This document shows, piece by piece, positions 32,772 to 43,583 of a stretch of 43,662 bases of DNA; position 1 is the stretch's first letter, and each line of letters starts with the position of its first letter. Where the stretch lies: contig JAHBWF010000057.1 of NCBI GenBank assembly GCA_019637105.1, positions 1 through 43,662 on the forward strand. Direction: 5' to 3'. The translations under genes were made by a program, and so were the position numbers. The stretch comes from Labilithrix sp. Its GTDB lineage: Bacteria > Myxococcota_A > Polyangia > Polyangiales > Polyangiaceae. The notes beneath the pieces are model-generated. The model was not told where the DNA came from. It saw only the letters and a program-made list of their open reading frames with translations, and ran no database searches.

Positions 32772-33614
32772 ATGAGCGGAAAGGGCCTGACCTGGACGGC
32801 CGCACACCTGCGCGCGGCCGCGTCTCCCGAGGAGGTCCGCACGGCGATCGCCGAGGCCGCCGGGCAGCTCGGCGACGGCTCCGTGCCCGCGGCCACCGCG
32901 CTCGCGCTCCTCGAGGAGCTCGCGCTCGACTGCGCCCGCGTGCGCGCGGATCTCCGCGCCGCGACGCGCGTCCGCGAGGTGCTCCTCGCCAGCGTCGCCC
33001 ACGACCTCAGGAATCCGCTGAACACGTTCGCGATGAGCGCCGGGCTCTTGCGTGACGACCTCGAGGGCCCCGACTTCGATCGCACGCGCGCGCTCTCGCT
33101 GCTGACGCGGATGGACCGCGCGTCGTCGCGGATGCAAGGGCTCATCGAGGACCTCCTCGAGGCGAGCCGCGTCGAGGGCGGCGTCGTCGAGCTCACGCGG
33201 CGGCTGGAGAAAGCGGGGCCGATCGCGCGCGCCGCGGTCGCCAAGGCGAAGCAGCACTGCGCCGACAAGGGCGCGACGCTCACGGAGGGCGCCATCGACG
33301 ACGACGCGCTCGTCGAGGTCGACAAGACTCGGACGGTCGACGCCCTCGTGAAGCTCGTGGCGGTCGCGCTGAGGACGACCGGCGACGGCGGCGGGATCCG
33401 GGTCGGCGTGGAGCGCCACGAGGCCGACGTGCTCTTCACGATCCGCGCGATCCCGCCGCGCGGCGCGCTGAGCTCGGTGGCCCACGACGAGGGCCGCGGG
33501 GGGCTCGCGTTCCTCATCGGCCGCGGGCTCGTGACCGCTCAGGGCGGACAGCTGCTCACCGAGTCGACCCAGGAGGGGCCGCGCATGGTGGCGGCCTTCC
33601 CGGCGAAGTCCTGA
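32772..33614 (+). CDS. Histidine kinase-like protein with degenerate ATP-binding domain
   Basis: The 280-residue soluble protein has a clear dimerisation/phosphoacceptor domain: His77 in ASVAHDLRNPLN, then LIEDLLEASRVEGG. The expected HATPase domain follows (about 155-278) but looks eroded. The N-box Asn is missing (LVKLVAVALRTTG), the G1 DxGxG motif is replaced by IRAIPPRG, and only a G2-like GRGGLAFLIGRGLVTAQGG survives. It probably cannot phosphorylate itself; it could be a phosphatase, a phosphotransfer or a partner of the hybrid kinase. It converges with that kinase gene at 9 bases. TAACTC lies 9 bases before the ATG, with no ribosome site visible. Confidence 0.85.
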   Translation: MSGKGLTWTAAHLRAAASPEEVRTAIAEAAGQLGDGSVPAATALALLEELALDCARVRADLRAATRVREVLLASVAHDLRNPLNTFAMSAGLLRDDLEGPDFDRTRALSLLTRMDRASSRMQGLIEDLLEASRVEGGVVELTRRLEKAGPIARAAVAKAKQHCADKGATLTEGAIDDDALVEVDKTRTVDALVKLVAVALRTTGDGGGIRVGVERHEADVLFTIRAIPPRGALSSVAHDEGRGGLAFLIGRGLVTAQGGQLLTESTQEGPRMVAAFPAKS

Positions 33615-33627
33615 GCCGCGGCTCAGG
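33610..33627. terminator. 18-bp perfect palindrome holding both stop codons
   Basis: CCTGAGCCGCGGCTCAGG is self-complementary over all 18 bases. It holds the TGA of the plus-strand kinase-like gene (33612-33614) and the TGA of the minus-strand hybrid kinase (33625-33623). Bidirectional terminator or regulatory site; no T-tract. Confidence 0.5.
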
Positions 33628-36355
33628 CGGCGCTGGAGGAGGACGCCTCGCCGTCGCGCGAGCTCGGCTCGCCGAGCGTGGCCCCGCCGCGCGCGAGCAG
33701 CCGCACGACCACGCTGCCGAGCATCGCCGGCTGCACCGGCTTGGCGACGTGCGCGTCGAAGCCGGCGGCGATCGCCTTCATCGCGTCCTGGCGCGAGGCG
33801 TACGCCGTCAGCGCGACCGCGGGGATGGCGCCGTCGTCCTTGCGCGCGCGCACGTTCTTGATGAGCTCCATCCCGTCCATGTCGGGCAGCCCGATGTCCG
33901 AGACGAGGATCTGCGGCCGCGCGCCGTCGAGCGCGTCGAGCGCGGCGGCGGCGGTCATCGCGGACGTCACGCGCGCTCCGTATCGCTCGAGGATCGCGCA
34001 GACGAGCTCGTTGCCATCGGGGTCGTCCTCGACGATGAGGACGTGCACGCCGGAGAGGTCGGGCTCGCCGGTCGGGGGCAGCGAGGCCGCCTCTTCGTCG
34101 CGCCCCGTCGAGGGCTCGGCGACGAGGGGCAGCTCGATGGAGAACGACGCCCCCTTCCCGTGGCCCTCGCTCGCGGCCGTCGCCGTGCCGCCGTGCTGCT
34201 CGACGAGGTGCTTGACGATCGCGAGGCCGAGGCCCAGGCCGGCCTGGTTCGCGCGCGGCTGCCGCGCCGAGGCGGCGCCCTCCGTCGGCTCCTGACGGAA
34301 GCGCTCGAAGACGTGGGGGAGGAACTCGGCCGCGATCCCGTCGCCCGTGTCCGACACCGTCAAGCGGACGCGCTCGTCGTCCCCGGTGAGGCGGACAGAG
34401 ACCGTCCCGCCGCGCGGCGTGAACTTGATCGCGTTCGACAGCAGGTTCGTGATCACCTGGCGGAGCCGCTCCGGATCGCCGAGGACGCCGCCGGCCTGCT
34501 CGATCTCGAGCTCGAGGTCGATCTCCTTCTTGGCGCACTGAGGGCGCGCCGCCATGACCGCCGCCTCGACGATCGCCCCGAGCGAGACGTACTTCGACTC
34601 GAGCTTGAGCGTCCCGGTGACGATGCGCGAGACGTCGAGGAGGTCGGCCACGAGACCGGAGAGCGCGTGCGCGTTGCGGTCGATCGTCTCGATGGCGCGA
34701 CCGAGCTCGTCCGCCGCGAGCGAGCCCTTCTTCAACATGTCGGTCCAGCCGACGATGGCGTTGAGCGGCGTCCTGAGCTCGTGCGAGAGGGTCGCGAGGA
34801 AGACGTCCTTGCTCTTGTTGGCGAGCTCGAGGTCCTCGCGGCGCTTCTCGGTCATCGCGTGCAGGCGCGCGTTGTCGATCGCGACGGCGATCCTCCGCGC
34901 CAGGTCGCCGGCGAGCTCGACGTCGGCCTCTTCGAACCGGTCCTTGTCCGACAGCTTGACGAACGTGAGCGTGCCGATCGTTCGATCGCGGCTCACGAGC
35001 GGGACGCAGATGTACGCGCGCACACCGAGCTCGGCGAGGAACCGCAGGTGCTCGGCGCCGCGGCCGGAGGACTTCGCCTCGCCGCGCGCCGCCAGCGCCC
35101 GAGCCTCCTCCTCGACGTCGAGGAAGACCTCGGCCCGCCCCGAGTAGCCGACCGTCGCGGGCCCCAGATCGAACCGCGGGTCGGCGAGGCGCGCGGCGTC
35201 GATCCCGTCCGCGGCCACGCGGAGGCGCTCGGACGCGATCCCGCCGTTCGCGAACGCCTCGCCGTTCGCGAGGTCGGTGCCCTGCACGTCGAGCAGCGCG
35301 GCGTCTCCCAGGATCGGCAGCGCGCTCGCGAGGACCAGCTCGAGGTCGCGCGTCGGCGTGACGCTCGCGTCGGGCTTGGTCGGATCGGCGCCGAGCAGCT
35401 GGTTCAGGCGCTGACTGGCGTCGGCGAGCATCTGCAGCGCCCGATCGGCGCGGACGCGCGCGTCGATGTCCGTCGCCGTGCCGACCCAGGCGACCACGTT
35501 CCCCTGGTCGTCGTGCCGCGGGACCGCGCGGACGAGGTGGAAGCGGTAGCCCCGGGACGGGGCGCCGAGGCGGAGCTCCGCCTCCCAGGCGACGCCGACC
35601 TTCACCGCGCTGCTCCACCCCGAGGCGAACGACACGAGATCCGCCGGATGCGCGATCGCCGCGAACTCCGCCGCGCCCGGGACCGACGGCGGCGCCTTCT
35701 GCGCGACGGCGTCGCGCGGGCTCGCGGGGCCCTCGCTCGTCGCGGAGGCCCGCGCGAGGTCCGCCCAGCGCTCGTTGTGGTACGTGATGTTCCCCGTCGC
35801 GTCGGCCGTCCACACGACCTGCGGCATCGAATCGGCGAGGTCCTGGTAGCGCCGCTCGCTCCACTCCTTGAAGTCGGCGAGCGCGCGCTCGCTCCCGACG
35901 CGCAGCGCCTCGTGCTGCGCCCGGATGCGCGCGTTCTTCTTCCCGAGCTCGACGAACGTCGCGACCTTGGTGCGGAGCGCGTCCGGATCGAACGGCTTGA
36001 AGAGGTAGTCGACCGCGCCGGCCTCGTACCCGCGCGCCACGTAGCTCTCGTCCTTGCTGATCGCCGCCAGGAAGATCACGGGCAGGTCGCGCGTCTTCGG
36101 CCGCTTCCGGAGGAGCTCCGCCGTCTCGATGCCGTCCATCTCCGGCATCTGCACGTCGAGCAGGACGACGCAGAACTCCGTCTTGAGCGCGTGGCGGAGC
36201 GCCTCGACGCCCGAGCCGGCGCGCACGACGCGCTGGCCGAGCGGCTCGAGGATCGCCTCGAGCGCGAGGAGGTTCGAGGCCTCGTCGTCGACGATGAGGA
36301 TGTTGCAGACCGGGCTGTCCTCGCACCCCGAGGGCGGCAGCGTCGACGGAGTCAT
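33623..36355 (-). CDS. Hybrid sensor histidine kinase (REC-PAS-GAF-HisKA-HATPase-REC)
   Basis: A 910-residue soluble kinase. The N-terminal receiver (about 18-140) has Asp67 in LLDVQMPEMDG and Lys in FKPFDPD. A PAS domain (about 170-300) carries a Pro/Ala-rich insert near 205-230. GAF (about 335-500) is followed by HisKA with His525 in SHELRTPLN. The HATPase domain has an N-box (NLLSNAIKF), DTGDGI and GLGLGLAIVK, all intact. A C-terminal receiver (about 775-890) has SDIGLPDMDG and AKPVQP. The ATG overlaps the cheB stop (ATGA), so it is the fourth gene of the poly-HAMP kinase/CheR/CheB operon. A receiver at each end suggests it can take phosphate from the first kinase and pass it on in a relay. 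Confidence 0.93.
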   Translation of the reverse strand: MTPSTLPPSGCEDSPVCNILIVDDEASNLLALEAILEPLGQRVVRAGSGVEALRHALKTEFCVVLLDVQMPEMDGIETAELLRKRPKTRDLPVIFLAAISKDESYVARGYEAGAVDYLFKPFDPDALRTKVATFVELGKKNARIRAQHEALRVGSERALADFKEWSERRYQDLADSMPQVVWTADATGNITYHNERWADLARASATSEGPASPRDAVAQKAPPSVPGAAEFAAIAHPADLVSFASGWSSAVKVGVAWEAELRLGAPSRGYRFHLVRAVPRHDDQGNVVAWVGTATDIDARVRADRALQMLADASQRLNQLLGADPTKPDASVTPTRDLELVLASALPILGDAALLDVQGTDLANGEAFANGGIASERLRVAADGIDAARLADPRFDLGPATVGYSGRAEVFLDVEEEARALAARGEAKSSGRGAEHLRFLAELGVRAYICVPLVSRDRTIGTLTFVKLSDKDRFEEADVELAGDLARRIAVAIDNARLHAMTEKRREDLELANKSKDVFLATLSHELRTPLNAIVGWTDMLKKGSLAADELGRAIETIDRNAHALSGLVADLLDVSRIVTGTLKLESKYVSLGAIVEAAVMAARPQCAKKEIDLELEIEQAGGVLGDPERLRQVITNLLSNAIKFTPRGGTVSVRLTGDDERVRLTVSDTGDGIAAEFLPHVFERFRQEPTEGAASARQPRANQAGLGLGLAIVKHLVEQHGGTATAASEGHGKGASFSIELPLVAEPSTGRDEEAASLPPTGEPDLSGVHVLIVEDDPDGNELVCAILERYGARVTSAMTAAAALDALDGARPQILVSDIGLPDMDGMELIKNVRARKDDGAIPAVALTAYASRQDAMKAIAAGFDAHVAKPVQPAMLGSVVVRLLARGGATLGEPSSRDGEASSSSAA

Positions 36356-36915
36356 CCGTTGCTCCTCTGCACGAGCTCGCCCGCGATCTCGCCGAGCGCG
36401 AGCACCCGATCCGCCGCCCCGATCGCGATCGCCGCGGTCGGCATCTCCGGGCTCTCCGCCGTCTTCGGGTCCTGGACGATGGCGAAGCCGCCGGCCGCCC
36501 GGATGCGCGCGAGGCCGCGCGTCCCGTCGTGGTTCGCGCCCGTCAAGAGGACGCCGAGGACGGCGGGGCCGTAGGAGTCGGCCGCGGACTCGAAGAGCAC
36601 GTCGATCGACGGCCGGCTGAAGCTCACGGGCTCGTCGGTGGAGAGGGCGAGCCTCCCGCCCGGCTCGAGGAGGAGGTGGTAGTCGGGCGGCGCGAGGTAG
36701 ACGCCCGGCGCGACGAGCTCCTCCTTGTCCTCGGCCTCGCGCACCGGCAGGGCGACCAGGCCCTGCATGACGGTCGCGAAGAGATCGGACTCGCGCGAGC
36801 GGTGCTGGACGGCGACGATCGGGATCGAGAAGACCGCCGGCAGCGCGCCGATGACGCGCTCGAGCGCGCGCAGCCCTCCGGCCGACGTCCCCATGACGAC
36901 GACGCTCGGCTTCAT
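36352..36915 (-). CDS. cheB: CheB-type protein-glutamate methylesterase, without receiver
   Basis: The 187-residue product is just the CheB catalytic domain. The Ser-His-Asp triad is Ser11 in GTSAGG, His38 in VQHRS and Asp130 in TGANHDGTRG, all intact. CheB removes methyl esters from glutamates and deamidates glutamines in chemoreceptors. It lacks the receiver that normally controls CheB, so it may be constitutively active or controlled by a separate receiver. It overlaps CheR upstream (ATGA) and the hybrid kinase downstream (ATGA). No methyl-accepting chemoreceptor, CheA or CheW gene is in the window, so the substrate is open. Confidence 0.93.
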   Translation of the reverse strand: MKPSVVVMGTSAGGLRALERVIGALPAVFSIPIVAVQHRSRESDLFATVMQGLVALPVREAEDKEELVAPGVYLAPPDYHLLLEPGGRLALSTDEPVSFSRPSIDVLFESAADSYGPAVLGVLLTGANHDGTRGLARIRAAGGFAIVQDPKTAESPEMPTAAIAIGAADRVLALGEIAGELVQRSNG

Positions 36916-38033
36916 CCGCGCGCCCCCCTCCCCGACGTCGCGCGCGAGGGCGCCGGCCCCCCGCCCTGACGCGGCAAGCTGTTGCGCCGGTAGATGCGCT
37001 CCTTCGGGTCGATCTCCTCGAACTCGTCCTCGACGTTCGTGAACCGGAGCGACTCGCGCCGGCCGAGGCAGAGGAAGCCGAACGACGAGAGGCTGTCGCC
37101 GAAGAGGCGGAGGGTCCGCGCCTTCAGGTTCCTGTCGAAGTAGATGAGGACGTTCCGGCAGAGGATGACGTTGAACTCGCTGAACGACGTGTCCGTCGCG
37201 AGGTTGTGCTGCGCGAACAGCACGTTCTCGCGCAGCCGCGCGTGGAACAGCGCGGCCCCGTAGCTCGCCGTGTAGTACTCGCTGAACGAGCGCGTGCCGC
37301 CGGCCTGCTGGTAGTTGGTCGTGTACTCGCGCATCCGCGCGATCGGAAAGATCCCGGTGCGGGCGCGGTCGAGCGCCTCGGCGTTCATGTCCGTCGCGTA
37401 GAGGCGCGAGCGCTCGTAGAGGCCCTCCTCCTCGAGCAGGATGGCCATCGCGTAGACCTCCTCGCCCGAGGCGCAGCCCGCGTGCCAGATGCGCACGGAC
37501 GGGTAGGTCCGGAGCATCGGCACCACCTTCTCGCGCAGCGCGCGGAAGAACGTGGGGTCGCGGAACATGCCCGTCACGTTGACGGACATGTCGCGCAAGA
37601 GCCCCTCCATCGCCGCGGGCTCGTGGAGCACGCGGTCCTGCAGCGCGGAGAAGGTCGAGAGCCCCTCGGCCTCGAGCCGCTTCTTGAGGCGGCGGCGGAG
37701 CGAGGACGGCGCGTACTGCCGGAAGTCGTAGCCGTAGTGGCGGTAGATCGCCTCGAGCAAGAGCTCCATCTCGAGCCGCTCGAGCGGCGGCACGCCGGCG
37801 AACGGCGCGGGCGACTCACCCGACACCACCGTCCGGCTGATGCGCCCCGGCACGTCGGGCTCCTCGGCCGGCGGCCTGTCCGCCGCCTCCGCGACGTCGG
37901 GGTCCGCGACCGCCCCGACCCGCGGCCCGGCGCCGGAGGACCCGCTCGCGAGCGCGACCTCCCGCCGCTCGCCGACGGCGACGGCGACGGCGGGGAGCTC
38001 GACGCGTCCGTAGGTGCCGCTCCTGGAGCTCAT
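36912..38033 (-). CDS. cheR: CheR-type protein-glutamate methyltransferase
   Basis: The 373-residue product has an 80-residue Pro/Val/Ala-rich N-terminal extension. A CheR all-helical domain follows (about 85-145: LLLEAIYRHYGYDFRQYAPSS, RRLKKRL), then an SAM-binding domain (about 165-355) with IWHAGCASGEEVYAMA, LYATDMN and NVILCRNVLIYFD. It methylates glutamates in receptor adaptation segments using S-adenosylmethionine. It lacks the C-terminal TPRs of some CheR homologues. Start ATG 38033 lies 22 bases after the poly-HAMP kinase stop. The stop overlaps cheB (ATGA). The genetic coupling to kinases rather than receptors suggests regulation of a kinase by methylation (inference). Confidence 0.93.
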   Translation of the reverse strand: MSSRSGTYGRVELPAVAVAVGERREVALASGSSGAGPRVGAVADPDVAEAADRPPAEEPDVPGRISRTVVSGESPAPFAGVPPLERLEMELLLEAIYRHYGYDFRQYAPSSLRRRLKKRLEAEGLSTFSALQDRVLHEPAAMEGLLRDMSVNVTGMFRDPTFFRALREKVVPMLRTYPSVRIWHAGCASGEEVYAMAILLEEEGLYERSRLYATDMNAEALDRARTGIFPIARMREYTTNYQQAGGTRSFSEYYTASYGAALFHARLRENVLFAQHNLATDTSFSEFNVILCRNVLIYFDRNLKARTLRLFGDSLSSFGFLCLGRRESLRFTNVEDEFEEIDPKERIYRRNSLPRQGGGPAPSRATSGRGARG

Positions 38034-38055
38034 GATCGGTTGCCTGGTCGGACCT

Positions 38056-43401
<5,346 letters not shown>

Positions 43402-43583
43402 GTAACCCTCCGTCGGGGAGACCCCGAGAGGGCGGTGCGTATGCAAGCCTCACACCGCGAGCGCGACTCGGCGGACGGCCTCGCAACCGCGGAGAATCGC
43501 GGTCGACCTTCCTCGATGTCGCACAAGATCGCCACACCCCACGCGCGTCTGCCTCAAGCGCCGCGCGATCGAGCGGGCCGCTT

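Follow-up and report, generated by a model that had tools for sequence, protein, structure and literature searches.

A Labilithrix operon of poly-HAMP sensor kinase, CheR and CheB as a candidate for kinase control by glutamate methylation

We analysed a window of 43,662 nucleotides, the entire contig JAHBWF010000057.1 of Labilithrix sp. (assembly GCA_019637105.1), and confirmed a four-gene operon on its minus strand (43401-33623) that encodes, in this order, a soluble poly-HAMP sensor kinase, a CheR methyltransferase, a CheB methylesterase and a hybrid kinase. Judged from sequence, the operon probably represents a sensor kinase controlled through reversible methylation of glutamates, with no chemoreceptor involved. 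The putative substrate is a coiled-coil linker within the kinase: in relatives linked to CheR, such linkers carry tandem Glu pairs every seven residues. Glu/Gln pairs at seven-residue spacing are known from the methyl-accepting helices of methyl-accepting chemotaxis proteins (MCPs). Genes for CheR and CheB are usually assigned to chemotaxis. If our reading is true, many sensor kinases would possess a memory and gain control that present annotation conceals, also in organisms that lack chemoreceptors.

The linker of the window kinase connects the GAF domain to HisKA (residues 989-1101, 40099..40437, minus strand) and is the proposed substrate of CheR and CheB. Its Glu pairs at seven-residue spacing lie at residues 1050/1051 and 1057/1058, within a tandem motif (residues 1050-1059, 40225..40254, minus strand) that would form the modified helix face. 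Both features were delimited by comparison with kinases that share the core of GAF, linker, HisKA, HATPase and receivers. The first set comprised 176 such kinases with 164 distinct linkers, repeats being counted once; seven linkers with short flanks were set aside as ambiguous. Linkers were called CheR-linked when a CheR match lay within 4 kb of the kinase (first set) or downstream in the flank (second set), and unlinked when no CheR was present and at least 2.5 kb (first set) or about 1.1-1.5 kb (second set) of downstream sequence was available. In the first set, the motif EE[LMI]x4EE[LMI] occurred in 97 of the 108 CheR-linked versus 8 of the 49 unlinked linkers, and among HAMP-array kinases in 17/22 versus 4/44. 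For the second set, which played no part in defining the motif, we drew on 244 genomes of Cyanobacteria, 149 of an actinobacterial class and 246 of a Bacillota order. Here the motif was found in 42 of 43 CheR-linked versus 5 of 19 unlinked linkers, counts that include L395, which repeats a first-set linker, and L394, which is not a family member.

Several of the unlinked motif bearers proved to have a CheR after all. One of the five in the second set, L392, turned out to be CheR-linked, and the other four, all cyanobacterial, had no CheR within about 5 kb but a 58-59% identical CheR elsewhere in the genome. Four of the eight in the first set belong to genomes with a family CheR (G157, G593, G154 and G087), defined by at least 44% identity and an E-value up to 1e-75, a cut that was chosen after a gap in the list had appeared. 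In several cyanobacteria (L091, L428-L431), CheR and a motif-bearing kinase are encoded far apart.

The difference between both classes extends to single residues. Most cyanobacterial and many actinobacterial unlinked array kinases have NAEL where their linked relatives have NEEL. In array kinases that align in register, Glu opens the pair in 18/22 linked versus 15/41 unlinked kinases, and in 5/5 versus 1/9 in the second set. We then compared all columns between 28 linked and 55 unlinked array kinases (L392 and its repeat L396 counted as linked, L397 as unlinked). Of 249 columns conserved to at least 80% in the linked set, 16 fell by at least 0.35 in the unlinked set, and four of these 16 are E1050, Q1054, E1057 and E1061, spaced i, i+4, i+7 and i+11. 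Random column draws gave such spacing in 0.08% of cases. If L1052 and L1059 are core residues, which is our own assignment, these four residues would sit on the outside of the coiled coil, at positions b and f.

Beyond this family the motif was rare. It was present in 1 of the 220 other histidine kinases of the loci, and that gene, from the genome of the window, adjoins a CheR gene. Five of the 24 kinases examined in this genome carried the motif: the window kinase, a kinase with a CheR on contig C24, a CheB-CheR-kinase fusion, a histidine kinase with receiver (HK-REC) beside CheR, and one kinase cut by a contig end. The fusion (CheB-CheR-kinase-REC; L116, C263) has five tandem EEL motifs in the same chain. 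A long CheR protein (L117, C224) has four tandem motifs about 190 residues past its CheR domain and is encoded beside the motif-bearing HK-REC gene. The same genome holds two further kinase-CheR-REC/kinase loci (L112 on C24; L113 on C47, L115 on C43); L112 has no CheB match nearby, and the kinases on C47 and C43 are cut by contig ends.

Many kinases of the second set are close relatives, so that its motif counts are not independent. A second tree was built from the kinase core without the linker (211 rows thinned to 176; L383, L384, L386, L387, L394 and rows with fewer than 200 core residues excluded; L392 set as CheR-linked). With all branches, our pairing script yielded 23 independent pairs, of which 13.2 agreed with a link between motif and CheR and 0.1 opposed it (median P=0.0002).

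A number of observations weigh against methylation of the linker. With supported branches only, 8 pairs remained (4.8 agree, 0.2 oppose, 3.0 tie) and the test was borderline (median P=0.0625, range 0.03-0.69), while an earlier, smaller tree gave 7 pairs (2.6 agree, 0.1 oppose, 4.3 tie) and no significance (median P=0.25). All tree-corrected tests point in one direction. The definition of the motif followed inspection of the first set. It is missing in 11 of the 108 CheR-linked linkers, including L264, L336 and L280, and present in four unlinked ones (L324, L326, L333 and L337) whose genomes have no family CheR. Unlinked kinases without HAMP arrays numbered only five in the first set, and four of them had the motif. 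In the column comparison, linker columns did not lead the Jensen-Shannon divergence ranking of all columns, and four columns within 12 residues arose in 7.7% of the random draws, which is not rare. The GAF columns Y894, K898, H871 and that of S902 also separated linked from unlinked kinases; thus, the classes differ elsewhere too, and sensing may differ between them. A sequence search of the window kinase found no match to the strict MCP methylation consensus, which surrounds the Glu pair in methyl-accepting helices of chemoreceptors. CheB does not adjoin CheR in 26 of the 78 loci; Bacillota, by title, account for 22 of these (L039-L065 and others). Finally, the 8.45 Mb genome of the window holds three MCP matches besides seven CheR matches, and the window CheR could therefore act on the MCPs in trans.

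The four GAF columns (871, 894, 898 and 902) are conserved in CheR-linked array kinases and possibly line a shared ligand pocket. The window GAF has Ser at 902, where Asn is usual.

The kinase gene (38056..43401, minus strand; all operon genes below are on this strand) starts with GTG at 43401, with an in-frame TTG at 43446, and encodes 1781 amino acids. Pfam recognised eight HAMP units, GAF, HisKA, HATPase_c and three Response_reg domains, and a crude hydropathy scan found no transmembrane stretch in the protein. With several HAMP units, GAF, HisKA/HATPase, receivers and no membrane span, it is a soluble poly-HAMP hybrid kinase. Its HAMP array spans residues 108-823 (40933..43080, from hidden Markov model (HMM) hits and an alignment of the units), the GAF domain residues 850-987 (40441..40854, Pfam), and HisKA with His1110 plus HATPase_c occupy 39385..40101 (Pfam). 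After a gap of 22 bases follows CheR (36912..38033, 373 amino acids, CheR_N and CheR in Pfam), which overlaps CheB (36352..36915, 187 amino acids) by four bases (36912-36915). CheB in turn overlaps the hybrid kinase (33623..36355, 910 amino acids, REC-PAS-GAF-HisKA-HATPase-REC from open reading frame (ORF) and Pfam) by four bases (36352-36355). Alignment of CheR to the solved structures 5ftw, 1bc5 and 1af7 revealed that its glycine-rich and CRNVLIYF stretches are kept, and the same holds for the GTSAGG, VQH and HDG stretches of CheB, a lone CheB_methylest domain in Pfam, aligned to 3sft, 6ymz and 1chd. We take the catalytic residues of both enzymes to lie within these stretches. All 81 aligned family CheRs have Arg at the positions of R114 and R115, and such a pair would fit an acidic helix. 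Among the matches listed, the nearest named relative of this CheR comes from a Labilithrix metagenome genome (84% identity). No MCP, CheW or Hpt domain was detected by Pfam in the seven proteins scanned, which speaks against a CheA or CheW in the operon.

These results bear out much of the first-pass annotation, which had described the gene order with its overlaps, eight HAMP units in a soluble kinase, complete active sites in CheR and CheB, a CheB without its usual receiver, and an operon devoid of MCP, CheA and CheW. Its operon span was drawn too short, ending at 36352 where the last gene runs on to 33623. Convergent with the operon, on the plus strand, lies a gene for a 280 amino acid protein (32772-33614) with a HisKA but no HATPase match. 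An ORF matching histidine kinases follows the operon in relatives too (280 amino acids in L031, L032 and L033; 362 in L034).

The order of genes recurs far beyond Myxococcota. A CheR search returned loci from many phyla, of which we analysed the best 80 of 85. Of the 77 loci with room, 70 have a kinase or receiver gene directly upstream of CheR; among the remaining seven, L036 has a kinase 2.3 kb upstream and L088 has one downstream. CheB directly follows CheR in 52 of 78 loci, and a receiver or kinase gene is found downstream of CheR in 61 of 74. Among annotated plasmids, Novosphingobium pHR1a shows kinase, CheR, CheB and hybrid kinase, whereas plasmid 2 of Deinococcus deserti (L437) has a kinase (seven HAMP units, GAF, HisKA, three REC and the linker motif), CheR and a REC-kinase with no CheB. 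The four-gene order that the first-pass annotation proposed to look for in Myxococcota thus does recur, spread over many phyla rather than peculiar to that one, and because of this recurrence the order in the window is more than chance. Operons that regularly include an MCP, which the annotation had named as evidence against its own proposal, were not found: models that we derived from two MCPs matched in the window's genome gave hits in 2 of the 80 CheR loci, both more than 5 kb off the kinase (5.0 and 7.6 kb).

We also searched whole genomes for the MCP domain (PF00015, E up to 1e-3). The sample of 64 genomes with family CheR and kinase consisted of 45 of 46 genomes (G185 was excluded for want of a kinase match) plus 19 picked for their CheR-linked loci. 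In 28 of the 64, no MCP domain was detected. Some of these 28 are metagenome genomes and possibly incomplete, while others are isolates, for example those behind L084, L086 and L100 (G173, G175 and G182). A chemoreceptor therefore cannot be the general substrate. The chances seem even to us that these systems form a class of two-component systems over many phyla, in which CheR, with CheB where present, reversibly methylates Glu pairs on the coiled coil between sensor and kinase domains, whereby adaptation of the chemoreceptor kind would act on a histidine kinase itself. In this reading, the class would include Myxococcota, Deinococcus, Bacillota, Cyanobacteria and Bacteroidota and extend to organisms without a chemoreceptor, and the fused CheB-CheR-kinases would follow the same principle in one chain.

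The target of CheR and CheB could instead be a protein other than this kinase (an MCP in trans, the hybrid kinase encoded downstream or an unknown partner), with the Glu-pair helix serving for docking or being a trait of this kinase clade. We consider this rather unlikely, and yet it accounts for several of the observations: the MCP matches in the window's own genome, the strong clade structure of the motif, and the GAF columns that separate the classes as well. A precedent for a target outside chemoreceptors is the response regulator PhoP, reportedly methylated by Salmonella CheR, for which the available text concludes on R112 as the substrate and leaves E8 to other enzymes (PMC8546571). What argues against this alternative is that MCP domains are absent from those 28 of 64 genomes, that the kinase is the most constant neighbour of CheR, and that the motif also accompanies CheR in the CheB-CheR-kinase fusion and in the long CheR protein.

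The first-pass annotation had suggested the HAMP units as the methylated part, as HAMP-adjoining helices are in chemoreceptors. The family as a whole speaks otherwise. GAF, coiled-coil linker, HisKA, HATPase and one to three receivers are constant among the collected kinases, for which this core was also the criterion of selection, while the input part varies between CHASE3, NIT, one HAMP and HAMP arrays. In the first set, our own HMM found at least three HAMP units in the kinases behind 22 of the 108 distinct linkers with a CheR link and fewer than three in 86. None of 67 array kinases had a predicted membrane span, whereas two spans were predicted in 78 of 94 other kinases; five non-array kinases analysed by Pfam had a single HAMP (4/5) and CHASE3 (2/5) or NIT (2/5). 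Methylation of HAMP helices would have the eight HAMP units of the window kinase in its favour, and one unit contains the near-consensus stretch TMVEQLSSF, the only match to a CheR consensus in the kinase and a loose one. In the alignment of the units, no Glu/Gln pair is conserved between them and a pair at a HAMP position occurs in just 1 of 9 rows, for which reason HAMP units were rejected as methyl acceptors. In addition, the same genome encodes a paralogue that has a HAMP array but no CheR in its vicinity; it is 56-59% identical to the window kinase over long aligned stretches and 71-78% in the best HAMP stretches, so that its HAMP parts are very similar. No CheR was found at 1e-20 in any of nine large actinobacterial genomes that encode HAMP-array kinases. 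Together with the 86 of 108 linkers from kinases without arrays, this makes HAMP units a very improbable site. The annotation's wider idea, that the kinase itself is the substrate of CheR and CheB, gains support from the comparison and is unproven.

Linkers of the first set differ in length in steps of seven residues, whether or not the kinase is CheR-linked. The coiled coil itself therefore needs no CheR, and heptad length was rejected as a CheR signature. That the Glu-rich linker is nothing but a generic coiled coil, with CheR and CheB as chance or decayed passengers, fits these lengths but is very improbable, given a motif in 1 of 220 other kinases, a gene order conserved across phyla and the kept catalytic stretches of both enzymes.

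Returning to methylation of the linker, we infer the following course, which covers the signal, the modification with its effect on activity, and the path of the phosphate. A cytoplasmic signal would be sensed by HAMP array and GAF domain, whose state the linker, as a parallel coiled coil, would relay to the HisKA/HATPase core. CheR would methylate exposed Glu-Glu pairs of the linker, which in the window lie around residues 1050-1061, and CheB would strip the methyl groups off again. Methylation would give the helix a different charge and packing and thereby shift kinase output, resulting in adaptation or gain control. Phosphate would travel to the three receivers and on to the REC-bearing hybrid kinase encoded last, the likely next relay step. 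As CheB has no receiver, feedback via CheB phosphorylation is unlikely, and the conformation of the linker would have to supply it. Where CheB is not next door, demethylation would fall to another enzyme or to none.

A relative of this gene set is in print. In Pseudomonas putida, CfcA (PP_3761) heads cfcABCDE, in which cfcB and cfcC are CheR/CheB genes with a chemotaxis role ruled out (PMC4951495). Together with the widespread occurrence of the gene set, this weakens the suggestion of the first-pass annotation that the kinase as substrate would be a new type of adapting two-component system. CfcA is described as a CHASE3/GAF hybrid kinase (PMC6849547) whose H496 is needed for activity of the diguanylate cyclase CfcR, its output (PMC4951495, PMC6849547). 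Compared by these descriptions, both operons place a GAF hybrid kinase first, then CheR and CheB, then a REC-bearing protein (CfcD), whereas the window kinase is a soluble HAMP-array kinase and CfcA has CHASE3 membrane input. The GAF-HisKA-REC3 relatives L097 and L076 have their phospho-His at residue 496, the number given for CfcA. The available text of PMC4951495 does not name the target of the cfc CheR and CheB, and it includes an unpublished statement of its authors that the crinkle phenotype was not hampered in mutants of the remaining cfc genes, which does not speak for a strong role of these CheR and CheB in that assay. Any effect of CheR or CheB on CfcA was therefore invisible in that assay. 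An identity of the cfc CheR with P. putida CheR1 was dropped, as cheR1 is reported from a wsp-like cluster (PMC6363813). Among the matches listed, open-licence titles and starts of abstracts contained no report of a histidine kinase methylated by an operon-borne CheR, and the accessible parts of PMC11481889, PMC5907407 and PMC2577667 hold nothing on such operons. Since our comparison points to one helix and to individual residues as the putative substrate, a role of CheR and CheB outside chemoreceptor pathways becomes directly testable.

Like MCP-CheA-CheW pathways, the window operon keeps the catalytic stretches of CheR and CheB and has Glu pairs at the MCP spacing of seven residues on a coiled coil. 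Unlike them, it has no MCP or CheW, its CheB is receiver-less and its kinase has sensor domains of its own. With the C263 fusion of the same genome it shares the combination of CheR, CheB and histidine kinase with tandem Glu heptads, distributed over an operon instead of one chain and in an otherwise different architecture. Poly-HAMP kinases without CheR, among them fungal group III kinases and those of actinobacteria and others, resemble the window kinase in HAMP array, GAF, HisKA, HATPase and receiver, but differ in that the Glu pairs of their linkers are mostly broken, as in NAEL for NEEL.

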